From a virus: 22,728 nt of DNA. Position 1 is the first letter of the stretch. Every line of letters begins with the position of its first letter. Both the position numbers and the translations under genes were made by a program. Shown one piece after another: positions 1,179-21,335 of this stretch. The notes under the pieces are model-generated. The model was not told where the DNA came from and ran no database searches. It saw nothing but the letters and a program-made list of their open reading frames with translations. The DNA lies in IMG/VR virus record IMGVR_UViG_3300020439_000089, positions 1 to 22,728 of that record, one strand, 5' to 3'.

Positions 1179-2916
1179 TTCTCAAGACCTCCTCTAATTG
1201 TTGTTGTGCTTCGTCACCTTGTGGGCTTGCTGGACCCTGACCATTCAGACCACCAGGCATACCTGGCATTGCTGGACCTTGTGGTGGAGTTTCGGGTACT
1301 GTACCCTCAGGTTGATTGACGTTCTCTATCATCTCCATATTTAATAAATCTTCAGGAGCTTCATCAAAACTCTCAAAGATTCTTCTTACAAACTTAGTAG
1401 GGTCTACTGCGTTTGCAACTTTTGGCATGTTGCCTATAACATTAACAATCTGCATAAGTTTGTTAAAGTTACTCATCTTCATTACTTTTCCGGATACTCC
1501 ACGTACTCTTATCCTTGCATCTTTAACAAGTTTCATACGTTCATTAAATGACATACCTAGCAACGTTACAACAGCTTTATCTGTTTCATCTTCTGTAAAT
1601 AACGGTGCATGAAAATCGTCATCCATATACATCAATTCTGTGTGTAGCAATGTTTGTAATGAAGGTTCTATGATACTTCGCTCTATCTCACTGGCAATAT
1701 CAGTAAAGAAACTAGAAGTCTCTTGTGTTTTAGTTGCTACCTCTGATGCTGTAGGTCTACCTTTACTTGTGGGTGCGCCTTGAAAAAACTCGTTTTGAAA
1801 CGACCTATTCTGAATCAAACGGTCTATTGTAAATAATAGGTTTACGGCATTGGGGTTTAACGCATTGTTATATACCTGGTTTATAGTATTTGGAGCAGAG
1901 ACTGGGTACATACGTCCAGGTACTACGCTACCAAATAGATGGGCTTTGCCAGACTCTATGTTTGCAGTTACAACTTCGTATACGCCCAACGTTGAAATTG
2001 TAAATGCGTCTAGCAATAAATTCATACTTTCTACGTATGAACTTAACAGGCTTCTTAACTTTGTAATATAACCTCTACCGTAACGCCCTTGTAGTACTTT
2101 CATTGGAAACCCCACACAATATGGGAATTGTCCATTTGGTAAATTATTTTTACCATAATATACAACATGCTTGTCATTAGCGACTACATAATGTATATGT
2201 TCATCAAGAACTTGTCCACGAGCATCCGATATAAATTTACTATACACATAGTCTAATTTAACATCAGAGACATAATCTACATCCCCCTCTGACTTGTTAA
2301 CTGACTCCTGTAATATAGTTTTTGTTTTGTTCCAATTGTTCACTCTAGCAAGAGCTTGATACTCTGCAACTGAACAACGCTTTGTTTCTATTATATAATT
2401 GTTACCGTCTGGGTCCATCATAACATTAAATGGATTAACGGGTTTTATATTTACTCTACCCACTGTTTCTTTCTGTGCTTCTATCTCTCCGTTAGTTTCA
2501 TTAAATTGTGGATAGGTTTCTTCTGTGTAAGTGTAATTAATTTTTGTAATGTATGGTGCAGTTAGTAATGCCATCTTTAGTGCATCACCAAATACTAACG
2601 GAAATCTATTTTGTATTAGAGATTGCTCTAATAATTTATTTAATCCAGTTTGTATATTTTTATCTGGATGTTCTACAGTAAAGTATTTATTATCTGTAGA
2701 CATAAGTATACGTACAAAATAGTTAGACATTCTAACTACTAAGTTGTCTACTATAGGGTCTTTTATTTTTGTCTGCCAATCTATCTTGTTTTGAAAACTA
2801 TACTCATCCATATAGAAACGCATGTTTTCTTTCCATTCAGCAGATGCCATATCAAACTCACTTTCTGCCGCAGCTTTAATATGTGCATGAAACTTTATTA
2901 TATCTTTTTCGTTCAA
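1150..2916 (-). CDS. Portal protein
   Basis: The 588-residue product has the features of a podovirus-type portal. It has an N-terminal helical region, a central part with the NPFNVMMDPDG turn near residues 160-172, and a long helix after FQGAPTSKGRPTASEVATKTQ that includes SEIERSIIEPSLQTLLHTEL. The tail, after about residue 530, is Pro/Gly/Gln-rich (PETPPQGP, MPGMPGG) and probably disordered. The start is TTG at 2916: it overlaps the terminase TGA stop as TTGA and has GAGAGG eight bases upstream. One copy of the genome's GGGTAC palindrome (1294-1306) is embedded in the disordered tail, where it encodes Gly-Thr-Val-Pro. Confidence 0.9.
   Translation of the reverse strand: MNEKDIIKFHAHIKAAAESEFDMASAEWKENMRFYMDEYSFQNKIDWQTKIKDPIVDNLVVRMSNYFVRILMSTDNKYFTVEHPDKNIQTGLNKLLEQSLIQNRFPLVFGDALKMALLTAPYITKINYTYTEETYPQFNETNGEIEAQKETVGRVNIKPVNPFNVMMDPDGNNYIIETKRCSVAEYQALARVNNWNKTKTILQESVNKSEGDVDYVSDVKLDYVYSKFISDARGQVLDEHIHYVVANDKHVVYYGKNNLPNGQFPYCVGFPMKVLQGRYGRGYITKLRSLLSSYVESMNLLLDAFTISTLGVYEVVTANIESGKAHLFGSVVPGRMYPVSAPNTINQVYNNALNPNAVNLLFTIDRLIQNRSFQNEFFQGAPTSKGRPTASEVATKTQETSSFFTDIASEIERSIIEPSLQTLLHTELMYMDDDFHAPLFTEDETDKAVVTLLGMSFNERMKLVKDARIRVRGVSGKVMKMSNFNKLMQIVNVIGNMPKVANAVDPTKFVRRIFESFDEAPEDLLNMEMIENVNQPEGTVPETPPQGPAMPGMPGGLNGQGPASPQGDEAQQQLEEVLRNVRRNQRQQ
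1294..1306. repeat. GGGTAC palindrome, copy in portal gene
   Basis: The sequence is GGGTACTGTACCC: perfect six-base arms around one base. It lies in the codons for the disordered portal tail and reads Gly-Thr-Val-Pro on the coding strand. Confidence 0.85.
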
Positions 2917-4436: not shown

Positions 4437-4493
4437 AATACTCCAAAGCAAGGATGTTTGGCTGCAATTCTCATTGCCTGTGCCACATCCCGC

Positions 4494-4640: not shown

Positions 4641-4652
4641 AATACTATCTCC

Positions 4653-4922
4653 TTAACAATCCCATGCTCTTAACGCCTTATTGATACGTGAGTTAGGGTC
4701 TCTTGCTGTTTTTGCTGATGTTAGCTTCTTTTTCATACCAGTCATTCTAGCACAAAAAGATTTTCTTCTTGAACTTCCTTTTTTCTTAGTAGGAGCTTTT
4801 AAGTTACCACCAGTTGCGCGGTTATAACTTGCCCTACCCTTAGCATTTAATCCACCTTTAGGATTTTTTCCTGCTTTTCTTTGCCATGCTGGGCTTTTCT
4901 TGCTGGATTTCTTTCGTGGCAT
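4653..4922 (-). CDS. Small basic phage protein with GGLNAKGR / RRKSFCARM motifs
   Basis: The 89-residue product is strongly basic. From the N-terminus it has a Lys/Ser-rich leader, SPAWQRKAGKNPKGGLNAKGR, a NLKAP turn, RRKSFCARMTGMKKK, and RDPNSRINKALRAWDC at the end. This motif series matches a widespread family of small uncharacterised phage proteins (I believe the DUF6321 type; not verified). Two conserved-looking cysteines stand in FCARM and at the C-terminus. AGAGG about eight bases upstream supports ATG 4922. It overlaps the upstream 57-residue gene by 65 bases. The role is unknown; DNA binding or packaging is suggested only by charge and location. Confidence 0.8.
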   Translation of the reverse strand: MPRKKSSKKSPAWQRKAGKNPKGGLNAKGRASYNRATGGNLKAPTKKKGSSRRKSFCARMTGMKKKLTSAKTARDPNSRINKALRAWDC

Positions 4923-5497: not shown

Positions 5498-5555
5498 TAA
5501 GTGCCTCCTAATGTACCAAAATTAATATGTTAAATAAAAACCTTTGTTTTATAAG

Positions 5556-5583: not shown

Positions 5584-5594
5584 GCATTATTTTT

Positions 5595-5725
5595 GGGTAA
5601 CTAGTGGGGTTTTCCTAAGTACCTGTAATCATTACATATTATAGTTGGGTACATGTACACTAATTTTTGGGTAAAAATGGGTAGAGCAATAAAAACCTGA
5701 TGTATATTTATTATATGTAGGGGTA
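5595..5725 (+). repeat. Phased GGGTA half-site array
   Basis: GGGTA occurs on the plus strand at 5595, 5647, 5669, 5679 and 5721. The intervals are 52, 22, 10 and 42 bases, each within about one base of a whole number of 10.5-base helical turns. The array lies just upstream of the candidate late promoter. It includes the imperfect palindrome GGGTACATGTACAC at 5647-5660. Confidence 0.6.
5647..5660. repeat. GGGTAC palindrome, degenerate intergenic copy
   Basis: GGGTACATGTACAC has one mismatch in the right arm relative to GGGTAC-N2-GTACCC. It stands about 95 bases upstream of the predicted late start point. Confidence 0.6.
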
Positions 5726-5947: not shown

Positions 5948-5983
5948 TGTGGAGTTGGATTTTATTTATTTTTTTTGTTTAAC

Positions 5984-6679
5984 TTATTGAATTATTGAAT
6001 CCGGGAATTCATTTCCGCGGTGGTCAACTATATGCTGAATACTAGCAAATAATTGCCTTAATGTTTTGACTTCATGGTCATTTAAATCATCTTGATTAAT
6101 TCCGTTTTCAATCAATGACTTGAACTCCATGACTTGTTTTTGATAGTCAACTTTCTTAGGTTGTTTAGGTGCAACTGGTTTACTAACCTTGTGACCTAAT
6201 TCATCTCCTAAGGTTCTGGAGCCCGTCATATTTGCGATAGTCTGCGGACTTAATAAAGCTTGTTTAATCCTCTTACGGTCAATATCTTTACCGTCAGCGG
6301 TTAACCACTTTCTAAGCTTGAAACACATATTTAAGAAGTTATAAGATTTAATCTTACTCTTAAAATTAGTATTCCAATTATCTTTAGCATCAGGGTTAAG
6401 CTTATCAACACTACTAGCTGAGAATTTCCAACTAGCTAACATCTGTTTTCTAATTGTTTTATCCTCTATTACTGAGTATTCATCTTCAGCTACTGCTAGA
6501 ATCCTAGCCGTTGCAACTCTATGCTTTAAGGCATCTTCTAAGCATTTATTAGCTGAATTATAATTGTTTATAATCCCACCAATATATTCTTTTTTAGTGA
6601 CACTTAAAACACTAGCTCTACCCTTATGAATTTTTGAATCGTTGGTTTGGGTACTCGTACCCGCTTTTTGTTTAGCCAT
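5984..6679 (-). CDS. Unknown basic protein, candidate regulator, between late and early promoters
   Basis: The 231-residue protein has a polar N-terminus (MAKQKAGTSTQTNDSK), a largely helical, Lys/Arg-rich middle, a segment near residues 140-165 (IDRKRIKQALLSPQTIANM) and a Pro/Lys linker before a C-terminal helical part. I recognise no family. The frame extends to ATG 6718, but ATG 6679 has AAGGAAAAAAG upstream and fits the promoter predicted at 6725-6752, whose start point would fall near 6718. It is isolated between the divergent late and early units, with a GGGTAC palindrome over codons 7-11 and another upstream of its promoter. That is the arrangement of an autoregulated control protein. 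This function is inference. Confidence 0.8.
   Translation of the reverse strand: MAKQKAGTSTQTNDSKIHKGRASVLSVTKKEYIGGIINNYNSANKCLEDALKHRVATARILAVAEDEYSVIEDKTIRKQMLASWKFSASSVDKLNPDAKDNWNTNFKSKIKSYNFLNMCFKLRKWLTADGKDIDRKRIKQALLSPQTIANMTGSRTLGDELGHKVSKPVAPKQPKKVDYQKQVMEFKSLIENGINQDDLNDHEVKTLRQLFASIQHIVDHRGNEFPDSIIQ
6649..6662. repeat. GGGTAC palindrome, inside start of gene 5984-6679
   Basis: GGGTACTCGTACCC has perfect arms around two bases. It covers the codons for Gly-Thr-Ser-Thr near the N-terminus, about 60 bases downstream of the predicted start point, consistent with an autoregulatory site. Confidence 0.85.
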
Positions 6680-6724
6680 ACTTTTTTCCTTACCAACTCC
6701 ACAAAATAAATTAAACATACGACC

Positions 6725-6773: not shown

Positions 6774-6788
6774 GGGTACACCGTACCC
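6774..6788. repeat. GGGTAC palindrome between divergent promoters
   Basis: GGGTACACCGTACCC has perfect arms around three bases. It lies between the two candidate divergent promoters and outside both predicted transcripts, so here it should act as DNA rather than RNA. Confidence 0.85.
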
Positions 6789-6895: not shown

Positions 6896-6923
6896 TTGAC
6901 TTATTGAACTAATAGTGTATAAT
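6896..6923 (+). promoter_or_regulatory. Early promoter, sigma70-like
   Basis: TTGACT (6896-6901) and a perfect TATAAT (6918-6923) are separated by 16 bases, with transcription expected from about 6930. It is the best bacterial promoter in the window and reads into the early operon through a leader of about 155 bases. A host RNA polymerase should read it unaided. Confidence 0.75.
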
Positions 6924-7043
6924 AGGATTTATGATTACTAGTATTAACTCATTGTGTGTACAAGCACTTATATATTTATTAACTAGGTGGTTGTCACTAG
7001 TAGTTTATACTTGTATCTGTGTCGTGTCAAGTGCCCGTTTTTT

Positions 7044-7057
7044 GGGTACCTGTACCC
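7044..7057. repeat. GGGTAC palindrome in early leader
   Basis: GGGTACCTGTACCC has perfect arms around two bases. It lies 28 bases before the first early start codon and upstream of its ribosome site. Confidence 0.88.
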
Positions 7058-7365: not shown

Positions 7366-7608
7366 ATGCTATCAAAACACCGTTTCTTTGATTGGTTGAA
7401 TGATGCCGAGGGTTTTATTCAATACTATCTTGACAATAAAGACCGCATTGAGTCAAGAGATGGCAAAGATACAACTGCCCTACAAATTCTTGATACTATT
7501 GTACATGATTTGACGGGGCTAATTTACGAGGACGATAGTATGCTACCTAAGTGTAATGGCTATGGTAAATATACACATGCTAGGTCAAGAAGGTCAGGTG
7601 CCAATTAG
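7366..7608 (+). CDS. Small hypothetical protein
   Basis: The product has about 80 residues from ATG 7366 (MLSKHRFFDWLNDAEG). A TTG at 7351 would add five residues and overlap the previous stop, but neither start has a clear ribosome site, so initiation may rely on coupling. The protein looks helical and acidic in the middle (YYLDNKDRIESRDGKD, ILDTIVHDLTGLIYEDD) with a basic tail (HARSRRSGAN). No family is recognised. Its TAG stop shares its last G with a GGGTAC palindrome. Confidence 0.65.
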   Translation: MLSKHRFFDWLNDAEGFIQYYLDNKDRIESRDGKDTTALQILDTIVHDLTGLIYEDDSMLPKCNGYGKYTHARSRRSGAN

Positions 7609-7621
7609 GGTACCTGTACCC
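7608..7621. repeat. GGGTAC palindrome fused to stop codon
   Basis: GGGTACCTGTACCC has perfect arms. Its first G is the last base of the TAG stop of gene 7366-7608. A separate 11-base-pair hairpin (7622-7654) follows immediately. Confidence 0.88.
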
Positions 7622-7667: not shown

Positions 7668-8006
7668 ATGTCTTTTCATTTGAGACATTATCCACGAAGT
7701 ACCCGTAATTTTTATTACTGTATACAAGATGGTCTTACTGTCTGGTATAGCTATAAAACTGCGGTTGCTGTTGAGGTTAATGATGAAAGATATGTTTGTG
7801 AAAACATGTGGTCTGTGACCACGGGCAAACATCTAACATGGATTGACGGTGGTGATAAAGAAGCTAAAAAAGCTAGGGTACCATACCCTGCTTTCCGTCA
7901 GTTATGTGACAAATATGCTATTGAAAAAACTAATGAGTACCAAACTCACTACCTTACACCAGAAGATGTAAAACGAATTGAGTTACTCAAGGCAGGTGGT
8001 GTATGA
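7668..8006 (+). CDS. Conserved small phage protein, function unknown
   Basis: The 112-residue protein has YYCIQDGLTVWYSYKTAVAVEV near residues 17-38 and NMWSVTTGKHLTWIDGG near 46-62. This 'SY.T.VA ... WS.TTGKHL..ID' pattern recalls short uncharacterised phage domains (possibly DUF8033; unverified). AGGAG stands six bases before ATG 7668. A degenerate GGGTAC palindrome (7876-7888) lies within the gene. Its TGA stop overlaps the start of the next small gene as ATGA, indicating coupled translation. Confidence 0.8.
   Translation: MSFHLRHYPRSTRNFYYCIQDGLTVWYSYKTAVAVEVNDERYVCENMWSVTTGKHLTWIDGGDKEAKKARVPYPAFRQLCDKYAIEKTNEYQTHYLTPEDVKRIELLKAGGV
7876..7888. repeat. GGGTA-CCA-TACCC palindrome, coding copy
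   Basis: The five outer base pairs of the motif are kept while the inner pair is lost. It lies in the codons of gene 7668-8006, preceded by CTA like several intergenic copies. Confidence 0.6.
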
Positions 8007-8182
8007 GTTACGGTGCTAAAGTATATGAAGAACTAATGCTACAAGCACCAGATTATCAAGAGTGTCATGTGAGGTGGCACTCTTGTATTTGTTTGTTGTA
8101 TTTCCATAAATTAGAACCTGTAGCCCACTCTGTTCATCAGTGGTTAAGAGATATAGGTATCAAGGAGGGTTATAATGGGTAG
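8003..8182 (+). CDS. Small hypothetical protein, 59 residues
   Basis: A complete short frame begins MSYGAKVYEELMLQAPDYQE and ends HQWLRDIGIKEGYNG. Its ATG overlaps the previous stop as ATGA, AGGTGG lies upstream, and its last eight bases overlap the next gene. It contains three Cys and five His (ECHVRWHSC, CLLYFHKLEP, HSVHQW), so metal binding is conceivable but unproven. Without it there would be an unexplained gap of 168 bases in a tightly packed operon, which favours a real gene. Confidence 0.7.
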   Translation: MSYGAKVYEELMLQAPDYQECHVRWHSCICLLYFHKLEPVAHSVHQWLRDIGIKEGYNG

Positions 8183-8549
8183 ATATTATGACGGTGATAT
8201 AAGTGGCAAGTTTTGGTTTGGTGTCCAGAGCAGTAATGATGCTGACCATTTTGGTGTAACGGGTACTGTACCCAACCAACTAAATTACTACTTTCATGAG
8301 CTAGATATTCCTTACATACTAAAAAAACTAGCTGAGATTAAGTCAGAAATGGGTGAAGATTTTAACGAACTAGCTAATTTCTTTGCCGATAACAATGGCT
8401 ACAATGATGAGATGATTGTAGAACAAACTAAAATCCCAAGAGATAAAGTAAAAAGTGCACTTCAATTGTATGCAAGATATCAATTAGGTAATGAAATACT
8501 AGAGTGTCTGCAAAAACATAAAGAGTGTTCTTTTACTGCGGAGGTGTAA
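8175..8549 (+). CDS. Conserved hypothetical phage protein (MGRYYDGDI family)
   Basis: The 124-residue protein begins MGRYYDGDISGKFWFGVQSS, a distinctive opening that I recall from uncharacterised phage and environmental proteins. Aromatic and acidic residues dominate the N-terminal half; the C-terminal half is helical (DKVKSALQLYARYQLGNEI). AAGGAGG lies seven bases before ATG 8175. A perfect GGGTAC palindrome (8261-8273) lies in frame, encoding Gly-Thr-Val-Pro near residue 30. Function is unknown. Confidence 0.8.
   Translation: MGRYYDGDISGKFWFGVQSSNDADHFGVTGTVPNQLNYYFHELDIPYILKKLAEIKSEMGEDFNELANFFADNNGYNDEMIVEQTKIPRDKVKSALQLYARYQLGNEILECLQKHKECSFTAEV
8261..8273. repeat. GGGTAC palindrome in gene 8175-8549
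   Basis: GGGTACTGTACCC has perfect arms around one base. It is read in frame as Gly-Thr-Val-Pro, the same reading as in the portal and in gene 19908-21335. Confidence 0.85.
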
Positions 8550-9009: not shown

Positions 9010-9135
9010 CTAATGGTAGGTACCATGTGGTTACGAATGGAATACATAGCTGTATTAAATAGAGGGAATAGATGCACCGTACGAGCAAATCCAACCTCTA
9101 GCCACATAAGGTACTGTACCCAAAGGAGATTAATT
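9010..9135 (+). other. Spacer rich in inverted repeats, possible structured RNA
   Basis: Within 126 bases there are ATGGTA-GG-TACCAT (9013-9026), AATACA-TAGC-TGTATT (9041-9056), TAGAGG (9060-9065) pairing with CCTCTA (9095-9100) around nested short pairs, and the near-perfect palindrome AGGTACTGTACCC (9109-9121). The frame of the next gene is open through it, but the ribosome site lies at its right end, so I read it as non-coding. Confidence 0.5.
9109..9121. repeat. GGGTAC palindrome, near-perfect, before gene 9136
   Basis: AGGTACTGTACCC has one mismatch at the outermost base. AAAGGAG and ATG 9136 follow directly, the same order as at 10213 and 11887. Confidence 0.7.
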
Positions 9136-9414
9136 ATGTCAATGTATTATTATGATTTATGTGATGATATGCATGGTGAGATGTTAAATGAAGACATGTT
9201 ACATGCTATGTCAAATGGTCATGTATCTAAGCATACTTTATTGTTTCACTCTAAAAATGACTTGGATACACTATTAGGGTACTTTATGAAATATGGGTAT
9301 CGTACCCGATTTGAACGAGAGAGAATGCATGAACCAGCTTGGTGGCACTTGCATTGTATCCATATTGTAGAGAGAATTAATGAACCATTTACTGATGATA
9401 AGGAGGAGATATGA
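9136..9414 (+). CDS. Small hypothetical protein
   Basis: The frame is open from 9013, but AAAGGAG at 9122-9128 sets the start at ATG 9136, giving 92 residues beginning MSMYYYDLCDDMHGEML. It is rich in His, Met and Tyr, with WWHLHCIHIVERINEPF near the C-terminus. An imperfect GGGTA palindrome (9295-9307) and a half site (9277-9282) lie inside. Its TGA stop overlaps the start of a membrane micropeptide as ATGA. No family is recognised. Confidence 0.72.
   Translation: MSMYYYDLCDDMHGEMLNEDMLHAMSNGHVSKHTLLFHSKNDLDTLLGYFMKYGYRTRFERERMHEPAWWHLHCIHIVERINEPFTDDKEEI
9295..9307. repeat. GGGTA-TCG-TACCC palindrome, coding copy
   Basis: The five outer pairs are intact around three bases. It lies in gene 9136-9414, 18 bases after a GGGTAC half site. 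Confidence 0.6.
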
Positions 9415-9515: not shown

Positions 9516-10034
9516 ATGAATATATTTGTATTAGATAAAGACATAGGTAAATGTGCGGAGTATCACAATGATAAACATGTTGTCAAAATGTGTTTGGAAT
9601 CCGCACAAATCCTGTGTACTGTGTGTCACAACTTAGGTATGGATGTTCCATGGAAACCAGTACATACTAATCATCCTTGTACTTTGTGGGCTATGGCATC
9701 CTTAGGTAATTGGTTGTGGCTACGAGACTATTGCTTTGCTTTGAACAGCGAGTATCTGTGGCGGTTTGACAAAGGTGCAAACCATAGAGCCTGGGATGTT
9801 GTAAATAAGTTACAAGTACCCGATATGCGACACAAGAGAAAGACTGAGCATGTAATTTGTATGCCAGATGAATACAAAAGGGATACTGTTATTGATTCAT
9901 ACCGTGCATACTATGTGTGGGGTAAAGCATCTATTGCCAAATGGTCATTACCTGCTAAAATACCGGCTTGGTACAGTAGTAAAAAGTATCCAAAGGAGGA
10001 CTTATGTCTACTCAACAAAACGACGAATGGATAG
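9516..10034 (+). CDS. Conserved phage protein, NIFVLD...YHNDKHVVKM family
   Basis: The 172-residue protein opens MNIFVLDKDIGKCAEYHNDK, then HVVKMCLESAQILCT, HTNHPCTLWAMAS and NWLWLRDYCFALNSEY. I recall this series of conserved His/Asp/Lys motifs from a widespread uncharacterised family of phage proteins. The His/Cys-rich motifs could form a metal-dependent active site, but no reaction is known to me. The start has no visible Shine-Dalgarno, unlike its neighbours, so expression may be low or coupled. Its 3' end overlaps the next gene by 31 bases. Confidence 0.82.
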   Translation: MNIFVLDKDIGKCAEYHNDKHVVKMCLESAQILCTVCHNLGMDVPWKPVHTNHPCTLWAMASLGNWLWLRDYCFALNSEYLWRFDKGANHRAWDVVNKLQVPDMRHKRKTEHVICMPDEYKRDTVIDSYRAYYVWGKASIAKWSLPAKIPAWYSSKKYPKEDLCLLNKTTNG

Positions 10035-10213
10035 AAGCAGTTAGAGAGTGTTTATATGAACTAACTGTAGACATTCACAAGTTTGTAAAGACACTAGATG
10101 GACATACTAGTGCTGATATTATTGCAAAGTATGGAGAGTACCCACCACACTATGTGGCAGAGTTACTACTAGATGCATTGCATGAAAAACATGTCCAAAG
10201 TAAGATTAGTTAG
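10004..10213 (+). CDS. Small hypothetical protein
   Basis: The 69-residue product begins MSTQQNDEWIEAVRECLYEL. AAAGGAGG lies inside the end of the previous gene, giving a clear start at 10004. It is probably helical throughout, with a HTSADIIAKYGEYPPHYVAE turn. No family is recognised. The last G of its TAG stop is the first base of a GGGTA palindrome. Confidence 0.7.
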   Translation: MSTQQNDEWIEAVRECLYELTVDIHKFVKTLDGHTSADIIAKYGEYPPHYVAELLLDALHEKHVQSKIS

Positions 10214-10226
10214 GGTACATATACCC
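10213..10226. repeat. GGGTA palindrome fused to stop codon
   Basis: GGGTACATATACCC keeps the five outer pairs. It begins with the last base of the TAG stop of gene 10004-10213 and is followed at once by AAGGAGG for ATG 10239. Confidence 0.75.
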
Positions 10227-10238
10227 AAGGAGGCAAAC

Positions 10239-10532
10239 ATGGATATGAATAATCCAGTTAACGAAGTGAGACGAACACTTGATAAAATTCGTAATGACTA
10301 TGCAGACAACTGTATAGTAATACACAAATCAGATGATGGTTGTGTAGAAGTGTGGGACAGCAAGGAAACAGAGTTACTGTACACTTGCATGGGCACACGA
10401 AAGATAGCATTGAGGATTGCCAAAGACCTAGAGTTAGAAGCAATTAAAACTGAGAGGAAACTAACTGCTTGGTTCAATGTTGATGGTAGCAAACGAGGCT
10501 ATCGAACTCATACAAATAATGGAGGTATATAA
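10239..10532 (+). CDS. Small hypothetical protein
   Basis: The frame extends back to 10173, but AAGGAGG at about 10227-10233 sets the start at ATG 10239, giving 97 residues (MDMNNPVNEVRRTLDKIRND). Predicted strands (NCIVIHKSDDGCVEVWD, ETELLYTCMG) precede a helix (RKIALRIAKDLELEAIKTE). The build resembles a small alpha/beta domain, but no family is recognised. The next gene begins directly after its stop. Confidence 0.72.
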   Translation: MDMNNPVNEVRRTLDKIRNDYADNCIVIHKSDDGCVEVWDSKETELLYTCMGTRKIALRIAKDLELEAIKTERKLTAWFNVDGSKRGYRTHTNNGGI

Positions 10533-10917: not shown

Positions 10918-11887
10918 GGGTGTACAATTAGAAACACCTTTTGATGTGTTAATGGAAGAGTTGTACTTGTGTGAAACAGATTTATCTAAACAAGATTTCT
11001 TAGATGTGGTAAAAGATAAATTAAATTCAACACAGTTTAACTTTGTCCGTGGTATGCCAGAGTCTGTTACTAGTGCCGTAGGTTTTAGGTCTATGAAACA
11101 CCTGCGTAGTTTAACACAGGTAAAAGAAATAGCAGACATACTGAAGAGTAGGTTAAGACCAGAGAAGAAATTAACAAAGATACAACGAGCATCTGATGTA
11201 CAAAGTTTTAACAGTCAATCACAATCAAAACTTATAAGTAGTTTTAATAGTGATGAGACTGAAGATATATTCAAACTATTTTACTATGGTTTGTGTAGAG
11301 AGGAATTAGCTGTGTTGTGTGCATTTAGTGGTAGAGGTAAGACAACGGTGCTCTTGTCTCTACTACGGGATGCTGTAAAAAGTGGATTGAAAACATTGTT
11401 TATATCCATACAAGATTTTAGTGAGGGTATGTTAAAACAAAGGTTAGAGGCAGCAGAGGAGTTTCCAGACTTTTATGCTTGTTGTTCTGCCTCGTTTGGT
11501 ATACCAGAACTTGAGATAGAAGTAGATGCGCTGCGTCCAGACATTGTGTTCTTAGATTATATGAGTGTTATGAGTACACCACAGATAAAAGAAAAGCGTT
11601 TTCAATTAGAATATATATCTGAGAACTTAAAACGATTAGCACAAGAAAAGAATATATGTATATTGACAGCGCACCAGCTCAATGCTGATGTAGATTTACC
11701 TACAGAGCGCGAGTTGTTAGAGGCAAAAGCTGGACTACTAGCACATACTGATTTAGTGCTAGGTATTGGTGGTGATATGTATGAGACTGTTCGTAATGTT
11801 ACTACAATTAAATCAAGAAGAGCGGCACCTGTTGATGTTTTCAAAATAGACATTGACTTTGCTAATCTTAAAACATTTTTATACTAG
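10841..11887 (+). CDS. DnaB-like replicative helicase (RecA-fold ATPase)
   Basis: The 348-residue protein has an N-terminal helical part and a RecA-like ATPase. Walker A is AFSGRGKT at residues 161-168; Walker B is RPDIVFLDYMSVM (Asp about 239); the sensor-like strand is NICILTAHQLN at 271-281. This motif order and spacing match DnaB-family replicative helicases, though it is shorter than the usual roughly 450 residues. GGAG stands eight bases before ATG 10841. Primase and polymerase follow in the same operon, so it should unwind the phage fork. A RecA/KaiC-type ATPase is the alternative. Its TAG stop overlaps a palindrome. Confidence 0.85.
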   Translation: MENSVLNLMAFLLKKERRHTLKKQLKGVQLETPFDVLMEELYLCETDLSKQDFLDVVKDKLNSTQFNFVRGMPESVTSAVGFRSMKHLRSLTQVKEIADILKSRLRPEKKLTKIQRASDVQSFNSQSQSKLISSFNSDETEDIFKLFYYGLCREELAVLCAFSGRGKTTVLLSLLRDAVKSGLKTLFISIQDFSEGMLKQRLEAAEEFPDFYACCSASFGIPELEIEVDALRPDIVFLDYMSVMSTPQIKEKRFQLEYISENLKRLAQEKNICILTAHQLNADVDLPTERELLEAKAGLLAHTDLVLGIGGDMYETVRNVTTIKSRRAAPVDVFKIDIDFANLKTFLY

Positions 11888-11900
11888 GGTACTGGTACCC
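11887..11900. repeat. GGGTAC palindrome fused to helicase stop codon
   Basis: GGGTACTGGTACCC has perfect arms. Its first base is the G of the helicase TAG stop. GGAGG and ATG 11913 follow. Confidence 0.88.
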
Positions 11901-12640: not shown

Positions 12641-13334
12641 TACACCGTCACTAGCAATCTATAAAGATGGTTATTATTGTTTTGGGTGTAAGAAAAGTGG
12701 TAAATTAGAACCATGGATGACAGACTTGGTATCAAAAGAAGATAACAGGGATGTGTCAAAAAGGTCTATAGATATAAGTAAGTTTACTTACACTTATGAA
12801 GATGAGCACAAAGAATTTTTACAGGCAAGAAACATACCAGCAACCACAGCATTAGAGTATGGAATGTCAGCTAGGGCAAATCAATTTTTAATACCAGCAT
12901 ATGATTTTGATGGGCACCTACACGGCTACCAGATACGTAACATTACAGGCAAACCCAAGTATAAATCTCTACCGGTACATGGGCAATATGCTAAGTATAG
13001 TTGGGTTGATTACGTAGACGTTGGGGTGCCTATTACTTCAGGTAAACTAACATGCTGCATCGTAGAATCAGTTGTAGATGCATTGTACATGTCACAGTTA
13101 AACATGCCATCTCTAGCATTGTTAGGTACCAATATACCTATGGATATTATACCATTCTTTGAGAAGTTAAAAGTTTATATTGTCTTTGACCCAGATGCTA
13201 TCGTTATAGCTTCGTATTTGCAGGATGTTATAGGTGCTTATGGTATAGATGTTGAAGTTGTTGACTTACCTGATGCACCATATAAAGTACCTATTAAACA
13301 AATAGGAAACAAAATACTTGGAGGTAGTTTATGA
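12594..13334 (+). CDS. DNA primase (zinc finger plus TOPRIM)
   Basis: The 246-residue protein starts with a zinc ribbon: Cys10, His13, Cys29 and Cys32 in KCPWHQD and YYCFGCKKSG. A TOPRIM core has the catalytic Glu at about 158 (CIVESVVDAL) and an Asp-Pro-Asp at about 199-201 (VYIVFDPDA). This corresponds to the primase half of T7 gp4-type proteins without the helicase half, which is encoded separately upstream. GAGGAG stands before ATG 12594 inside the preceding gene. It should make primers for the family A polymerase. Its end overlaps the next gene as ATGA. Confidence 0.92.
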   Translation: MGQVIALTKCPWHQDNTPSLAIYKDGYYCFGCKKSGKLEPWMTDLVSKEDNRDVSKRSIDISKFTYTYEDEHKEFLQARNIPATTALEYGMSARANQFLIPAYDFDGHLHGYQIRNITGKPKYKSLPVHGQYAKYSWVDYVDVGVPITSGKLTCCIVESVVDALYMSQLNMPSLALLGTNIPMDIIPFFEKLKVYIVFDPDAIVIASYLQDVIGAYGIDVEVVDLPDAPYKVPIKQIGNKILGGSL

Positions 13335-13540
13335 TTAGTAAATTTGTAGATGAGGTAACTGCACAAATCATGACTGGTTTAGAATATGATAAACGCAGAG
13401 ACCCAATTAAATATACATTAGAAGAAAATATAGTAAGACGTATTTTGATGCGTAATTTAGATTCACTATTAGAGGAGATACAAGGTGTTCAAAAAGATAC
13501 AAGCGGGGACAACCAAGAGAGTAGTCTTAATACTAAGTGA
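13331..13540 (+). CDS. Small hypothetical protein between primase and polymerase
   Basis: The 69-residue product begins MISKFVDEVTAQIMTGLEYD and looks helical and acidic. GGAGGT stands six bases before the ATG, which overlaps the primase stop. Its last 56 bases overlap the polymerase start in another frame, and it carries the polymerase ribosome site. It may act mainly as a coupling leader for the polymerase, or be a replisome accessory; no family is recognised. Confidence 0.68.
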   Translation: MISKFVDEVTAQIMTGLEYDKRRDPIKYTLEENIVRRILMRNLDSLLEEIQGVQKDTSGDNQESSLNTK

Positions 13541-15542
13541 TAAACCATGTGAGGCAATGACCAGGTTAGGACAACCAAAAGGTACTAAGATGTATGACGA
13601 CTTAGAGGTATTGTGTCGTGATTATCTACCTAAGATACAAACTTGGTGGTGTTCTTGTATTCCTAAGTATCAAGACAAAGTAAAAATTGCAGACATTCGT
13701 AAACATGTGCCATTTGTCAGGCAGGTTATTGATAAAGTAAAACCTGTTTATATTATTGCCATGGGACGTGATGCGTCACGTACTATTGATGAGATAGAAG
13801 GTGATTTACCAGAGGTATTTTCTTGTGGTAGCTGGTTTGATGGTGCTTACAAATCTTTTACAGAAACTTTTAATAGAGTACAGCATGAGTTTAGGGGTAC
13901 ATTGTACCCAATACCTGTAACACAAAGTTTAAGTAAGATAGTTATGCAGTCAGAAAGATATAAAGAGTTAGCTATAGATTTTGAATGGAACCCAGACACA
14001 GGTGTACCCCATTCAGTGGGTTTAGCTGCAGGTAAATGGTGTGGTGGATTCATTCTTACTGACCAGATAAAACAAGTTATATTAAAAGCTGTACGTGATA
14101 AGGACATGACTATCGTAGGGCATAACATTACAGCTGACTGTACTAAAATATTAGACTACTTAGGTAATAATATAGAGTGTAATTTTATGGACACTTTATT
14201 ATTAAAACGTCAGTTAGATTTTAGTAATAAGAATAATGGATTAAAATATTTAGCTGACAGATTTTTGTTACTAGAAAATTATTGGAGGGATATAACAATT
14301 GAAGATTTTGCAAGCCCTAGTCCTAAGTTGCTTCGCTATACTGCTGGGGATGCTTGGGCTACTCTACGTTTGTGGGATACATATTACCAAAACTATCAAA
14401 AAGATTGGCAGTTTATGGACGTAGCCCGTAGGTTAGATATGGAGATGGTTCTGCCAGTAGCACACATGATACATGGTGGAATCAAATTAGATAAAAAAGA
14501 GTTGGTAAAGCAACGTAAAAAATTGCATAAAGAACAGATAAAACTATTAGAATATTTTGAAACAAATTATGACATAAATCCTTCAAGCCCATTGCAAGTG
14601 TTAGAGGTATTGAAGAAAAAACACAAGATTAAATCAACTGGTGTAGATGTGTTAAGTAAATTAAACACACCGTTTACTCAAAAGATATTAGAGTATCGTA
14701 AGGTTACAAAACTATTAACCACATACATAGACAAGATACCAGACTTAGCAGATTCAGAAGGTATCATTAGATGTAATTTACATTTAGGCAGCACTGTAAC
14801 AGGTCGTATGAGTAGTAGTAATCCTAACATGCAAAATATACCACCATATGTACGCCCTATATTTCAATCTGTATTTGAACAAGATGGATGTTTAATGACT
14901 GTGGATGCTAGTCAAAGTGAGTTGCGCTGTTTAGCATATCTTAGTGGTAGTCAGTACTTGATAGATGCATACAACCAAGGGACGGACATGCATACCCTTG
15001 TGTCAGAGTTAGCAGGGATAGAACGTAAAAATGCTAAGACACTTAACTTTGCTTATGTGTATGGTTCATCTGAGTTTGGTTTAATAAATCAATTAATTAT
15101 GTCAGGTGTACCTAAAGCACTGTCTGCACAAACTGTAAAATTATTTATGAATACAATGTCACAGATTGGTATAGCAGATTATCAACGTAAACTTATTGAC
15201 AAGGCTAAAGGGCTCGGGTATATATATTCACCATACGGTAGAGTGGGTAATAGGTTGAAGACTACACAAGTTGTTAACTATCCCATACAGTCATTTAGTG
15301 CTGACATAAACAAGCAACGCATTATACAAATGTTTAACTTGTTAAAAAAGTACAAACTAAAAAGTCGTATCTGGTTAGAGTTTCATGATGCGATGGAGTT
15401 AGATGTGTATGGACCAGAGTTAGAACAGGTCAGAGAAATATTACAAACAGAAATTAATGAAGATATCCCTGATGTCTTGGGTAAAGGCATAAATTTACAG
15501 CTCCCTTTGGATGTTAAAGAACATGGCGTCAACTGGGAATAG
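13485..15542 (+). CDS. Family A DNA polymerase with 3'-5' exonuclease and UDG-like N-terminal domain
   Basis: The 685-residue polymerase starts at GTG 13485 with GAGGAG eight bases upstream. Residues 1-155 resemble a degenerate uracil-DNA-glycosylase fold (VVLILSDKPCEAM; PFVRQVIDKVKPVYIIAMGR), lacking an obvious catalytic motif. The exonuclease follows: Asp165/Glu167 in AIDFEW, Asn214 to Asp218 in GHNITAD, YTAGDAW near 285-291. Polymerase motifs are TGRMSSSNPNMQNIP (439-453), motif A TVDASQSELR (Asp474), motif B RKNAKTLNFAYVYG (514-527) and motif C FHDAMELD (His634, Asp635). The residue equivalent to E. coli Phe762 is Phe522. A GGGTAC palindrome lies at codons near 137-141. Confidence 0.95.
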   Translation: MFKKIQAGTTKRVVLILSDKPCEAMTRLGQPKGTKMYDDLEVLCRDYLPKIQTWWCSCIPKYQDKVKIADIRKHVPFVRQVIDKVKPVYIIAMGRDASRTIDEIEGDLPEVFSCGSWFDGAYKSFTETFNRVQHEFRGTLYPIPVTQSLSKIVMQSERYKELAIDFEWNPDTGVPHSVGLAAGKWCGGFILTDQIKQVILKAVRDKDMTIVGHNITADCTKILDYLGNNIECNFMDTLLLKRQLDFSNKNNGLKYLADRFLLLENYWRDITIEDFASPSPKLLRYTAGDAWATLRLWDTYYQNYQKDWQFMDVARRLDMEMVLPVAHMIHGGIKLDKKELVKQRKKLHKEQIKLLEYFETNYDINPSSPLQVLEVLKKKHKIKSTGVDVLSKLNTPFTQKILEYRKVTKLLTTYIDKIPDLADSEGIIRCNLHLGSTVTGRMSSSNPNMQNIPPYVRPIFQSVFEQDGCLMTVDASQSELRCLAYLSGSQYLIDAYNQGTDMHTLVSELAGIERKNAKTLNFAYVYGSSEFGLINQLIMSGVPKALSAQTVKLFMNTMSQIGIADYQRKLIDKAKGLGYIYSPYGRVGNRLKTTQVVNYPIQSFSADINKQRIIQMFNLLKKYKLKSRIWLEFHDAMELDVYGPELEQVREILQTEINEDIPDVLGKGINLQLPLDVKEHGVNWE
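13895..13909. repeat. GGGTAC palindrome in polymerase gene
   Basis: GGGTACATTGTACCC has perfect arms around three bases. It lies in codons of the UDG-like N-terminal domain, outside the exonuclease and polymerase motifs. Confidence 0.82.
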
Positions 15543-15834: not shown

Positions 15835-16659
15835 ATGAGCTACACAGTAAAACAACTAATGACAGACCCAGAGTTGTTTCTGGAGGCTTTACACGACTCA
15901 ACAGAGTCTGTATTGGATGACGAGTTTGCGTTAAGATTTGAAGAATGGAAAGCACGCGGTGTAGGTAAAGACAATTTAGTACGTTCTTCAAGTCTGGGTA
16001 CGTGTATACGTCAGGCATATTATTCTTATTTAGCTGATGTGGAACGAACACCGGTATCGGACCCACTAGCTAGGCGTAGAATGTTTATGGGGTTTGTTAA
16101 TGAACAGACCATGGGTAGAATCATAGACAAAATGCCCGGTAAAATACATGGGTTAGATAGTGCGGAACAAAATCAGTTTCCTATTCATGTAGAAATGGAT
16201 GCTGACAAACCCATTGGTTTTGCAGCCACTACAGACTTTGTTAAAGAGTTTGAAGATAAAGATGGTAATAAATATCTGATACCTATGGAGTTAAAATCCA
16301 CGGATATTTACAAATGGAAAGATTTTACGTTTTGGAAGTACCACTTAAAACAATTATTGTTATGGGTGTATATAGCTAAACAACTGGGGTACAACGTACC
16401 CTATGCTATTTTACTATATACAAGACGTAGCACTATGGAGATGAAACATTGTGTTATCTCTGTAGATACTAAATATACAAAAATGGGCAGGATAATAGAA
16501 AGCTGGGAACATTGGCAGCCATACATTCACCATCTGGTGGACACCTTGCGAAACTCCTCACAGAGTAAACAAGTACCCGCTTTACCAACTGATGTTCCTA
16601 AATACATCTGTGCATCTTGCCCTCACAAACCGGTATGTGATAGGGATGGTAATTATTAA
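15835..16659 (+). CDS. Cas4/RecB-like PD-(D/E)XK exonuclease with Fe-S cysteines
   Basis: The 274-residue protein has the Cas4/AddB-type layout. Cys57 is in SSSLGTCIRQAYYS; the nuclease core has Asp134 (FAATTDFV), Glu152 and Lys154 (PMELKST) and a Gln173...Tyr179 helix (HLKQLLLWVYIAK). A C-terminal cysteine trio follows at about 259, 262 and 268 (CASCPHKPVC). The four cysteines would bind a 4Fe-4S cluster, as in this family. Phage members act in replication or recombination end-processing. AGGAG precedes ATG 15835. A GGGTAC palindrome (16387-16401) lies in frame near residue 185. Confidence 0.88.
   Translation: MSYTVKQLMTDPELFLEALHDSTESVLDDEFALRFEEWKARGVGKDNLVRSSSLGTCIRQAYYSYLADVERTPVSDPLARRRMFMGFVNEQTMGRIIDKMPGKIHGLDSAEQNQFPIHVEMDADKPIGFAATTDFVKEFEDKDGNKYLIPMELKSTDIYKWKDFTFWKYHLKQLLLWVYIAKQLGYNVPYAILLYTRRSTMEMKHCVISVDTKYTKMGRIIESWEHWQPYIHHLVDTLRNSSQSKQVPALPTDVPKYICASCPHKPVCDRDGNY
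16387..16401. repeat. GGGTAC palindrome in exonuclease gene
   Basis: GGGTACAACGTACCC has perfect arms around three bases. It encodes Gly-Tyr-Asn-Val-Pro in a folded part of the Cas4-like protein, so it is not limited to disordered linkers. Confidence 0.82.
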
Positions 16660-18058: not shown

Positions 18059-18097
18059 CCCTTAGTAACTTATCGGCGTTCGGTTACATTGGGTGAG

Positions 18098-18139
18098 CCC
18101 CACCGGGTTTTCTGGTTATATTACTGGTGGGGTTTTTTT
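18098..18139 (+). terminator. Rho-independent terminator of the early operon
   Basis: CCCCACC (18098-18104) pairs with GGTGGGG (18126-18132) around a 21-base loop, followed by seven T residues (18133-18139). The T-run is on the plus strand only, so it terminates the rightward early transcript. The right arm overlaps the last codons of the convergent gene 18121-18363. The loop is long for a terminator, but stem and T-run are strong. Confidence 0.8.
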
Positions 18140-18363
18140 CTACCATTCTTATGGTATCTGTGTACAGCACGTTCTAAGTAGTCTACTTTAAGTGTAAGTT
18201 CTTTTAAGGTTACATCTTTCTCAGACATAAGGTCATACAATTTATCTACACTATCTCTTAATTTATCTAAACTTTGATTTAGTTTATACAAAACAAATAT
18301 AGCTACAGCAATAGGGAAACCTACATTTGTAATCATACTTTCTACCATGCCGTACTCGTCCAT
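18121..18363 (-). CDS. Small membrane protein, holin-like
   Basis: The 80-residue protein has an acidic start (MDEYGMVESMI), one membrane segment near residues 12-28 (VGFPIAVAIFVLYKL) and a charged coiled-coil tail ending in basic residues (HRYHKNGRKKPHQ). This build resembles BhlA/UviB-type holin-like peptides, and it is the last gene of the late operon, a usual place for lysis genes. AGGAG precedes ATG 18363, which overlaps the previous stop (TAATG). No endolysin is visible nearby, so a lysis role is not proven. Confidence 0.6.
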   Translation of the reverse strand: MDEYGMVESMITNVGFPIAVAIFVLYKLNQSLDKLRDSVDKLYDLMSEKDVTLKELTLKVDYLERAVHRYHKNGRKKPHQ

Positions 18364-19676
18364 TAGTCTCCTATAGGTGGGTTAGTTAATGTTATATCTG
18401 CTATGTCCTTAGTTGGTTTTCCTTGTGTTTGTCTTAGTAAATTGTCAATGTTTATCCCGTTATCTTTCTCAATCTGTGTGCGTATTCTGTCGTCATTTGG
18501 ATTGTGTATTGAGTTTAAACTATTTCGTACAAATCCAAGTGCTCCACCATTTGGTCTATTTAACCGCCAGGTATCTGATTTCAATTTCTCTTTAACTTTA
18601 GCGTGTAACTCATCTCTCTTAGGGCTTGTATCTTGTAAATAATCTATGTATCCATTTTCGTACCCATATCTTTTAAGTACTGCGTCATAGTCGTTCATCA
18701 TAGGTTGTAATGTACTATAGATTCTTTTTAAGTGTGCATCAGCTCTAGCTCTGTCTTCATCCTCTAAGTCATCATAACCAATCTCCATCAGGTGTATGCC
18801 TAATACTGTGTTTAATAACTCTTGTTTAGTAGTTGGATGTGTTTTATTATTATTGTATGGTTCCCAACTTTGAAACCAAGTACTATCTGTCTTATTTAGT
18901 ATCTGCTCTACCCTCTTAATATAACTATTAGCTTTGGATAAGTATTCTTCAGTAGTAGTATTTTCTGCAAAGTTATCTCTCCACTTTACACGTGAGTCAG
19001 TAGCATCATATTTACCCTTATAAGTAAATCCATGCATATGTCTAAATAACTGCAATACCATATCTCCGTGTGTCATATACCTGGCTACACCTGCACGTTT
19101 TTCGTACTGTCCAGTTTCCTTGTCATAATTACCAGCAGCCCTCATGTGTACAGAAGGTACAGCACCAGTAAAATATTCTCTATCTTGAGTAGCAATTGAT
19201 GATGAGTAATTCATTTTACCATGGTGTATATCTAGGGCTGTATTGTCAGTAGGATTGTACAACGCGATAGGATTCTTAAAACCAGTTTTAATTAAATAGT
19301 TTTGTACAGTGGTCGGGATATATTGTTTATACCTATTAAAATCATCTTCTGTTTCAATCCTAACAGGTGGCAACATTCCAGAAGAATAATCTTGTACCTG
19401 CTGCTGTTCTTCTAGAGGCATCTGAGATACTTCTCTTGCCCAAGGACCAGAAAAAAATTTGTTTATAGGATTAGCAACTTCTTTATTAAAAATATTTGCT
19501 TCTTCTTGTGTTTCAAGTATCTCAATAATATGTGCGCTCTTTGAGTTTATTGCATCTAATGCACACTCATCATCTGTGATATATCTATTTTTTTCTAGTT
19601 CTGCATCCCAACGGTATGGGCTAACAGCAAAGAATCCATCATCTGTTTTTATCACACGTACTTTAGGTATTATCAT
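18363..19676 (-). CDS. Unknown late protein, 437 residues
   Basis: The soluble-looking protein begins MIIPKVRVIKTDDGFFAVSP. It contains a His-rich central part (ALDIHHGKMNYSSS; MVLQLFRHMHGFTYKGKYD), a helical stretch (ANSYIKRVEQILNKTDSTW; HLMEIGYDDLEDEDRA) and a polar C-terminus. GGGAG precedes ATG 19676 and forms the end of the upstream gene. I recognise no domain. A virion protein or a lysis-related hydrolase could stand here, but no catalytic motif is evident. Confidence 0.75.
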   Translation of the reverse strand: MIIPKVRVIKTDDGFFAVSPYRWDAELEKNRYITDDECALDAINSKSAHIIEILETQEEANIFNKEVANPINKFFSGPWAREVSQMPLEEQQQVQDYSSGMLPPVRIETEDDFNRYKQYIPTTVQNYLIKTGFKNPIALYNPTDNTALDIHHGKMNYSSSIATQDREYFTGAVPSVHMRAAGNYDKETGQYEKRAGVARYMTHGDMVLQLFRHMHGFTYKGKYDATDSRVKWRDNFAENTTTEEYLSKANSYIKRVEQILNKTDSTWFQSWEPYNNNKTHPTTKQELLNTVLGIHLMEIGYDDLEDEDRARADAHLKRIYSTLQPMMNDYDAVLKRYGYENGYIDYLQDTSPKRDELHAKVKEKLKSDTWRLNRPNGGALGFVRNSLNSIHNPNDDRIRTQIEKDNGINIDNLLRQTQGKPTKDIADITLTNPPIGD

Positions 19677-19681
19677 TTTAC

Positions 19682-19918
19682 TTATCTCCCTAATGGATTA
19701 TTTAAACCAGACCTAAATTCATCTAGTTTAGCATCCAATACTTCTACTCTTTTATCTAATAGATTTACTTGTTGTTGTAATTTTTCTATTGTATCAGAAC
19801 CTACTGCTTCTGACACTGCATCTAGTCTGTTGTTAAACACACCCCATGCATAGAATCCACCACCAATGGCAGATACAACCCCAATTATCATTGCATATTT
19901 TTGTAATTTATCTAGCAT
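19682..19918 (-). CDS. Small membrane protein with coiled coil
   Basis: The 78-residue protein has one N-terminal membrane segment (residues about 9-28, AMIIGVVSAIGGGFYAWGVF) and then a long coiled coil (DTIEKLQQQVNLLDKRVEVL). Phages often encode such proteins as holin accessories or in lysis cassettes, and the holin-like gene 18121-18363 has the same architecture. AAGGAG seven bases before ATG 19918 lies in the end of the upstream gene (11-base overlap). Confidence 0.72.
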   Translation of the reverse strand: MLDKLQKYAMIIGVVSAIGGGFYAWGVFNNRLDAVSEAVGSDTIEKLQQQVNLLDKRVEVLDAKLDEFRSGLNNPLGR

Positions 19919-21335
19919 ATTGTCTCCTTAAAACTTCTAATTCTCTTTCCTTAATTATTCTATTCTGTGTAGCTTGTTGTAAATTTACCTGATATTTTAA
20001 TACAGGGTCGTTTACTGACATAGCTAAGAATTTGTTATTGTTATTATAAATTTGTATATCATAATTATCTAATATACGCAAATCCTCATAAATACGCCCA
20101 CTATAAATCTCACGGTTATCTGTATATTGTTTGTAGTAACTAGATATATCTACTTGTTTTTCTTCTATCATTTGTGCTGCAACAATATTAACTACAGCTA
20201 ACTGTTTATCTATTGCTTTAACAGTCACACTTACTTCGGTCTGTATATCACCTACATCTATACTAGGTGTTTCTTCGGGTACAGTACCCTGGTCTGAGTT
20301 TTCCTCTACTGCCACTTGCTCGTTACTAGATGGTTCACTCTTAGGTTCTTCCTGAACTGTTGCCACAGTGGTACTTTCAGTCTGTTCAGGTTGTTCTTCC
20401 ATGAGCTCTTCTGTAACTGCAGCAGTTTCTGTAGGTTTCTCTTCTGTAATTTCTTCCTCTTCTTCAACAATTTCTGGTCCTCCAAATACTTGTAATATTT
20501 CTACCTCTTCAAATTCTTCTTCTAAGGTAGTAGTTAGTTCTTCAAATACTATTTCTTCTTCTAATGGGATTATACCAAATTCTTCTAATGCTATAGGCAT
20601 AGGAATAAACTCTTCTATGGGTACTGGTTCTGTAAATGATTGTTCCCATTCTGCAAACTGTTCGATGACTTCTTGTATTTCTTCTATAGTTTCTTCTTCT
20701 ATGACAGTATCATCGTAAGTCATAGTAAGTTTAGCACCAAGTAAATTAGGTCCACCTAGACTTGTGCCATATGTGCTATACCCAGCGTCTACACCTTCCC
20801 ATTCCCAATAGAATTGATTGCTACCTGCACCTGTATAGCTTACAGAATCTTCATACTTGAAAGCATTGTTACCGTATCCAGCATCTGTGTTTCTAGTTTG
20901 ATTTGTTATGGCTAATGTATTACCGTCATCATCTAATATTTTGACTGTAGTTGTATATGTATCTTGTCCTTGTGTAGCTTGACCACATTGCCAAGTAGAA
21001 CCAACAAACTCACAGTTCTGAACAATAGTTGTAGAGTTAAGTACAATACCGTTGTCTAGTTGTTGTTGTGTAGCATAGTCAGTCAGGTTACCAGTGTAAT
21101 TAATACTAGCTGTACCTGTAGTTTCTAACTCTCCACCCCAATCTCTTATAGCACCAACCGTGTTAAATCCATTAGTTGATACACTAGGTATTGTGTTGTC
21201 TACGCTTTGGTAACTGCTTGAGTTGTTTGTACCATTCGGTAATAGGTTTTCTGTCGTAAGTTCTTCTGCGCTTACTGCCCACGCTATCAATAATAGTATT
21301 AACAACAAGTAGCCACATTTAGTCATCATCTCCAT
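19908..21335 (-). CDS. Exported protein with Glu-rich disordered middle
   Basis: The 475-residue product has a clear Sec signal (CGYLLLILLLIAWAVSA, cleavage likely after residue 23). An Asn/Thr/Gly-rich beta-type region (about 30-205) with Cys108 and Cys117 follows. Next is a very acidic, Glu/Pro/Thr-rich probably disordered segment (about 210-356), then a helical end (IIKERELEVLRRQYAR). No family is recognised. The ATG at 21335 has no good ribosome site; internal ATGs at 21329 and 21326 follow GGAG closely, so translation is probably coupled to the upstream gene. A perfect palindrome lies in the disordered part. Confidence 0.78.
   Translation of the reverse strand: MEMMTKCGYLLLILLLIAWAVSAEELTTENLLPNGTNNSSSYQSVDNTIPSVSTNGFNTVGAIRDWGGELETTGTASINYTGNLTDYATQQQLDNGIVLNSTTIVQNCEFVGSTWQCGQATQGQDTYTTTVKILDDDGNTLAITNQTRNTDAGYGNNAFKYEDSVSYTGAGSNQFYWEWEGVDAGYSTYGTSLGGPNLLGAKLTMTYDDTVIEEETIEEIQEVIEQFAEWEQSFTEPVPIEEFIPMPIALEEFGIIPLEEEIVFEELTTTLEEEFEEVEILQVFGGPEIVEEEEEITEEKPTETAAVTEELMEEQPEQTESTTVATVQEEPKSEPSSNEQVAVEENSDQGTVPEETPSIDVGDIQTEVSVTVKAIDKQLAVVNIVAAQMIEEKQVDISSYYKQYTDNREIYSGRIYEDLRILDNYDIQIYNNNNKFLAMSVNDPVLKYQVNLQQATQNRIIKERELEVLRRQYAR
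20277..20289. repeat. GGGTAC palindrome in gene 19908-21335
   Basis: GGGTACAGTACCC has perfect arms around one base. It encodes Gly-Thr-Val-Pro (residues about 350-353) in the Glu-rich disordered linker. Confidence 0.85.

Follow-up and report, generated by a model that had tools for sequence, protein, structure and literature searches.

The window analysed here, a stretch of 22,728 nucleotides (positions 1 to 22,728 of IMG/VR record IMGVR_UViG_3300020439_000089), is a 22.7-kb virus record representing a fragment of an uncultured phage. Its genes include a terminase, a portal-like gene, a DnaB-like helicase, a primase and a family-A DNA polymerase. Dispersed among these is the subject of this report, a short palindrome of the form GGGTAC-N1-3-GTACCC, together with the gene beside the small terminase gene that is the candidate for encoding its binding protein. 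Related records, searched for by polymerase and terminase and coded G001 to G023 (W being the window), were found only among the viral contigs of IMG/VR.

Starting from the left end, the first site (GGGTACTGTACCC, 1294–1306) is located in the portal-like gene (1150–2916, minus strand), in the stretch that codes for the C terminus; it is kept in G001 (at 78214), and in G016 to G019 it lies in a neighbouring alignment column. A near-perfect site (GGGTACATGTACAC, 5647–5660; AGGTACATGTACCC at 73266 in G001) is found between the small terminase gene and the candidate regulator gene (5984–6718, minus strand). The first codons of the latter contain GGGTACTCGTACCC (6649–6662), which is kept in G001, with an altered spacer, despite a flank identity of 57%. 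Upstream of the same gene is GGGTACACCGTACCC (6774–6788), with a spacer of three bases that is N2 in its G001 counterpart. The sequence GGGTACCTGTACCC occurs twice, at 7044–7057, past the early promoter and ahead of the first early gene (7086, plus strand), just upstream of a leftward promoter, and at 7608–7621, where it overlaps the stop codon ending the early gene before it and has a displaced counterpart in G001. Inside early genes are the near-perfect GGGTACCATACCC (7876–7888; perfect in G001, at 71064), a second copy of GGGTACTGTACCC (8261–8273, in the gene at 8175–8549; lost in G001) and the near-perfect GGGTATCGTACCC (9295–9307; the corresponding place in the G001 alignment has none). 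The near-perfect AGGTACTGTACCC (9109–9121; perfect in G001, at 70322) stands immediately before AAAGGAG and a start codon near 9133, the near-perfect GGGTACATATACCC (10213–10226) between a stop codon and AAGGAGG, while GGGTACTGGTACCC (11887–11900) overlaps the helicase stop codon and abuts the next ribosome-binding site. Further downstream, GGGTACATTGTACCC (13895–13909) lies inside the DNA polymerase gene (13485–15542, plus strand), GGGTACAACGTACCC (16387–16401) inside the gene at 15835–16659 and GGGTACAGTACCC (20277–20289) inside a late gene (19908–21335, minus strand). In the comparison with G001, nine of the ten perfect sites of the window gave alignments good enough to be counted, and the perfect sites are mostly kept there, often with altered spacers.

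These ten perfect and five near-perfect copies had been reported in a first-pass annotation of the window, and all were recovered at the same coordinates, the near-perfect ones with one mismatch apiece. Eleven of its twelve additional half sites were also exact; the one placed at 1914 is actually at 1904, and another, at 15996, had been overlooked. Its statement that the outer five base pairs are kept when the inner pair changes is true of 7876, 9295 and 10213, not of 5647 and 9109. No perfect copy arose in 500 dinucleotide-preserving shuffles, and a codon-based null model (synonymous-codon plus intergenic shuffling, 1000 runs) averaged 0.12 copies and never exceeded three, against ten observed. 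When all gapped 5+5-mer words of the window were scanned without bias, the GGGTAC palindrome came first. Chance or a codon artefact was rejected on both shuffle models and the scan. Half sites are likewise in excess, with 38 (20 of them within perfect palindromes) against 6.5–7.8 expected, and seven of the fifteen sites are intergenic, while about 9% of the window is (binomial p = 2e-4).

Several relatives contain sets of their own. The second half of G001, with a polymerase 88% identical to that of the window, has 12 copies of the window motif. The form TCGGGTA-N3-TACCCGA is present in G016 to G018, GCGGGA-N3-TCCCGC in G002, G003, G006, G007 and G008, GTCGGGA-N3-TCCCGAC in G004, G005 and G011, and GTCGGTA-N3-TACCGAC in G015. 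Some of the relatives' copies are degenerate and several are at equivalent places; no other dispersed gapped word is as strong as the palindrome in the palindrome genomes covered by the scan. The gapped-word scan revealed no dispersed dyad of comparable strength in G009, G012, G014 or positions 1–43 kb of G001. An apparent palindrome in G023 was rejected, as it consists of two copies 26 bp apart with no dispersed set. The annotation had called the motif genome-wide, and this describes the window, the second half of G001 and G016 to G018 (arms containing GGGTA, the GGGTA subgroup), but not the GCGGGA and GTCGGGA groups, which have four to six sites, mainly in early intergenic gaps.

When six pairs of genomes are compared, 7% of arm positions have changed, against 18% of flanking and 31% of spacer positions (Fisher p = 3e-11 and 1.5e-10, values that are indicative since some pairs share genomes). 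Between G011 and G015, four sites are shared and all eight half sites differ by the same GGGA/GGTA change. These two phages are closely related, with polymerases 96% identical (over 200 residues of the G015 polymerase fragment) and candidate regulators 88% identical; the flanks of the four sites are 53–97% identical, with 97% at two of them. A similar replacement is seen inside the polymerase gene, where at the same alignment column GTCGGGA is present in G004 and G005 and GCGGGA in G002, G006 and G008, with different encoded residues, the polymerases of the former being 88–89% identical to those of the latter. The polymerase-gene site of the window and G001 is located about 40 codons downstream of the position common to the GCGGGA, GTCGGGA and TCGGGTA groups, so the idea that the window and its relatives have this site at the same codon was rejected. 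The comparison that the annotation had proposed, for conservation or replacement of the sites in relatives, shows arms that are kept, or a whole set that has been swapped for another palindrome. Conserved arms and a concerted change of the set point to a sequence-specific factor acting in trans on all of its members, and the palindromes are almost certainly sites for such a factor.

The candidate for encoding it is the neighbour of the small terminase gene, at the early/late junction of the window. As listed (5984–6718, minus strand) it codes for 244 residues, with an isoelectric point (pI) of 9.6 and a predicted all-helical core; the start codon is likely at 6679, after an AAGGA motif, which would give a protein of about 231 residues. 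In the window, G001, G016 and G017 the terminase-adjacent gene belongs to one family (242–288 residues, 23–63% identical to the window member), in the GCGGGA group to a second (195–206 residues, 195 in G002) and in G011 and G015 to a third (240 residues). In G009 and G012 something else occupies this place, and none of the three regulator gene types was found in the records without a comparable dyad (G009, G012, G014 and G001 1–43 kb). The type of motif matches the type of terminase-adjacent gene in all ten genomes where both are readable, and in each of these ten a cognate site is present in the first codons of that gene or at most about 110 bp upstream of it. All members are strongly basic (pI 9.3–9.8, charge +9 to +20). 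Except for a single short overlapping frame, this gene alone is specific to the GCGGGA group. For the GGGTA group the specific genes also include two small early ones (10004–10213 and 10230–10532), along with a short antisense frame, and these are alternative candidates for the binder; the GTCGG group, from which two related genomes were available, has many group-specific genes. The product of the terminase-adjacent gene is likely what binds the palindromes. Scans with the window regulator alone, or with a two-member alignment, revealed no further relatives beyond G001, and no homologue of any of the three types was found in 50,697 phage records.

Another small protein (77–92 residues; DCEDILHDAC...KYIGKFRERRNRE) is encoded beside the small terminase gene in many relatives, for instance in G002 (9528–9806, minus strand). 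By eye it resembles sigma region 2; it has no Pfam match and no convincing homologue in the window.

Putative promoters in this region are consensus matches, and their weight comes from conservation. The early rightward promoter (6896–6923, plus strand) is sigma70-like, TTGACT-N16-TATAAT, with counterparts in G001, G002, G005, G006 and G008 that share the form TTGAC[AT]-N16-TATA[AC]T. In all six, the first site downstream is found 80–121 nucleotides past the -10 box, before the first early gene and not overlapping the promoter. A leftward promoter, TTGACA-N17-TAAACT (7002–7030, minus strand), points towards the regulator gene, and in the window, G001, G016 and G017 a site (7044 in the window) is located 53–55 nucleotides upstream of the end of its -10 box. 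In G002 and G008 a weaker promoter precedes the regulator gene, with the site about one helical turn further up. The remaining sites are placed between a stop codon and a ribosome-binding site, or inside genes. This placement, past the promoter, in gaps between genes and within genes, fits blocked elongation better than it fits occlusion of promoters.

An element of about 100 nucleotides was noted between the palindrome and the first early ribosome-binding site of G006 (L036, ~11700–11815, minus strand) and G016 (L097, ~12750–12850, minus strand); G017 has two copies (L099, ~11443–11543 and ~11561–11650, plus strand), with three palindromes around them. Its closing stem varies while pairing is kept (AGCAACUG/CAGUUGCU, AGUGACUG/CAGUUACU), with fold z-scores from -1.0 to -2.9. 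It matches no Rfam family and was not seen in the window.

From the sequences, we propose that the palindromes are operators of a phage-encoded, autoregulated, dimeric DNA-binding regulator that acts as a stoperator-like roadblock on the early genes, a reading to which we assign a probability of roughly 0.6. In the window the regulator would most likely be the basic protein of 5984–6718. It would bind at its own gene, controlling its own expression, and at the sites dispersed over the early operon, in the GGGTA subgroup also in some late genes. Since most sites are downstream of promoters, in stop-to-ribosome-binding-site gaps or in genes, the bound protein would most likely halt or slow the elongating RNA polymerase, and we give this as the main mechanism about an even chance. 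Early genes would in this way be shut down at a later stage of infection or during dormancy. While the non-random site set, the arms kept over spacers, the concerted rewriting and the co-segregation with one gene are observed, we infer the protein binding, the dimerisation, the roadblock and its timing. The annotation had suggested that a repressor or an architectural protein encoded by the phage binds the sites. A phage-encoded, sequence-specific binder is borne out by the conservation of arms relative to spacers and flanks, by the joint change of the set and by its link to one phage gene. Of the two kinds of protein, a regulator is favoured by the placement of the sites and by their presence at the regulator gene itself.

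Other explanations share part of this evidence. The same phage regulator might work at classical operators, occluding or activating promoters and not blocking elongation. From site 7044, immediately above the leftward promoter, the bound protein could switch that promoter on and hold early transcription down, and the near-constant distance between site and leftward promoter in four genomes, with the site above the weaker promoter in G002 and G008, is consistent with this. Most sites have no adjoining promoter, however, those in polymerase, portal and late genes are hard to fit, and promoter-like matches in the early region show no excess over shuffles (23 against 26.3), making this mode of action unlikely. 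Sites for an architectural, partition or replication protein (nucleoid-like, ParB-like or an initiator) would agree with the presence of GGGTA-subgroup sites in early and late genes and inside coding regions, and known ParB-type proteins, such as KorB of plasmid RK2, do use dispersed palindromes. The ParB_N domain (PF02195) had no match in ten records searched, several of them fragments, and the four to six mainly early intergenic sites of the GCGGGA and GTCGGGA groups suit regulation better; we regard a role of this kind as improbable.

Several sites abut AAGGAG, and GCGGGAACTTCCCGC and GGGTACCTGTACCC are predicted to fold with -8.9 and -4.6 kcal/mol, which could suggest an mRNA hairpin at the ribosome-binding site, serving as a translational operator or processing site. 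Such an element is disfavoured because the arms are invariant in sequence and not just complementary, the loops are free and the mismatches are mostly non-wobble (in one of the five imperfect window sites, 9295, the mismatch would be a G-U pair in the transcript); some sites are moreover inside genes or upstream of promoters, and an RNA-level function seems very unlikely. Slightly less credible still is binding by a transcription factor of the host, varying from one host to another, with the sites as decoys or host-responsive elements. Phages responsive to host CtrA have been proposed (PMC9437464), but here the motif follows the type of a phage gene that has a site of its own, and G011 and G015, with their nearly identical polymerase fragments, would need hosts differing in factor specificity. 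Finally, chance, a mobile repeat or a composition artefact has the shortness of the motif in its favour and nothing else; in view of the null models, the positions kept with variable spacers and the concerted replacement of motifs, it is hardly conceivable.

Against the proposed operators and regulator stand several results. The candidate regulator has no Pfam match and no recognisable DNA-binding domain that would place it in a known HTH repressor family, and a PDB fold search with the modest model of the window protein (predicted local distance difference test, pLDDT, 57.7) gave no match above noise; the model of the GCGGGA type (pLDDT 43.6) was too poor for use. Profile comparison of the three regulator types gave weak matches and no detectable homology (GGGTA against GCGGGA type, E 0.14 over 29 columns; the other two pairs, about 0.4), a common 'LS..[TS]I.N' stretch is at best a hint, and a single mechanism for all three is an assumption. 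The informative sample is small, ten genomes from few clades with which the groups largely coincide, and the contigs of G004 and G005 stop before the full regulator gene. Six arm differences separate G006 from G008, probably reflecting a misaligned or lost site. Spacers of 1–3 bp in the GGGTA subgroup, with a change from N3 to N2 at the conserved site 6774, are unusual for a rigid dimer. No integrase (PF00589) was found in the same ten records, which leaves silencing without an evident purpose.

The groupings draw on genome fragments from uncultured phages, and in G001 and G008 there are indications that different phages have been joined. The 83,747 bases of G001 appear to be two different related phages end to end, one at ~1–43 kb, without palindromes and with a polymerase 46% identical to that of the window, the other at ~43–84 kb (88%, with palindromes), and the record is possibly a chimeric assembly. 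In G008, a gene series at 40.3–45.6 kb is matched in size, and not identical, to that at 0.1–6.4 kb, as if a second related genome follows. Deposited phages show weak similarity to the window, and no prophage relative was found by terminase in bacterial genomes (one genome for each of 84,980 species). The sole nucleotide-level match among the 50,697 phage records covers 66 bp (window 4827–4892), with 86% identity to Methylophilales phage MEP401, and is a hint on host or habitat only. Rfam gave no match in the window.

More tentatively, and with somewhat less than even odds, the data describe an apparently non-integrating phage lineage with modular silencing. Small basic proteins without a recognised fold, either one undescribed family or three unrelated ones, would be swapped at one locus, all sites would be rewritten in concert, and one variant would tolerate spacers of 1–3 bp. 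If this is true, regulator swaps could set incompatible immunity types among virulent-looking phages. The comparison also raises the question why phages in which no integrase is found retain a repressor-like network. As natural specificity variants, with shared sites differing by one base per half site, G011 and G015 open both operator-regulator coevolution and the roadblock idea to direct testing.

Many scattered operators served by one element-encoded regulator are known from the c1 operators of phage P1, which are asymmetric, and from the operators of plasmid RK2 that are bound by KorB, a member of the ParB family, whose ParB_N domain had no match in the ten records here. In Cluster A mycobacteriophages such as L5 and Bxb1, 20–30 repressor sites are dispersed mostly off promoters, their consensus diverges along with the repressor, and the upstream region of the repressor itself holds a site (PMC6550527, PMC9283540). 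Dispersal off promoters, joint divergence and the site at the gene recur here with the candidate regulator gene. In L5-type systems the bound repressor stops elongating transcription, as the candidate is proposed to do. The L5 stoperators had been offered as an analogue in the annotation, and the likeness holds for placement (in operon gaps, from stop codon to ribosome-binding site, and past the early promoter); it does not extend to symmetry or, with no integrase found, to lifestyle. Stoperators are asymmetric and oriented with transcription, whereas the sites here are perfect palindromes, and on this account the system is not classed as an L5-type member. Cluster A phages are also temperate, with an integrase or parABS, while neither PF00589 nor PF02195 was matched in our ten records, several of which are fragments, and the candidate protein has no detected similarity in the phage collection. 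Cluster K mycobacteriophages have short repeated elements, SAS and ESAS, just upstream of translation starts (PMC3203893). The ESAS are, like our sites, inverted repeats with a variable spacer; they are imperfect 17-bp repeats with spacers mostly of 4–13 bp, and the SAS is asymmetric and includes the ribosome-binding site (PMC3203893).

The nearest described case is that of the Cluster O mycobacteriophages, where Corndog has 34 copies of a 17-bp palindromic repeat, TGTTCGG-N3-CCGAACA, whose binder is not known (PMC4351075). As in our phages, these palindromes are dispersed, with invariant arms and a free N3 spacer, many of them in short intergenic gaps and some in genes, mostly off promoters, and a dimeric binder has been predicted; the Cluster O phages have no integrase (PMC4351075), and none was found in our ten records. 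The host group is different, the copies here number 4–17, and the arms are GGGTAC, TCGGGTA, GCGGGA, GTCGGGA or GTCGGTA. The Corndog-type combination of 7-bp arms and a fixed N3 spacer is seen in the GTCGGGA and GTCGGTA groups, while the window has 6-bp arms and N1-3. Palindromes of the Corndog type have been known without a binder or a function; in the phages described here, whole sets of sites have been rewritten between relatives, and co-segregation singles out a specific candidate gene for the protein that binds them.

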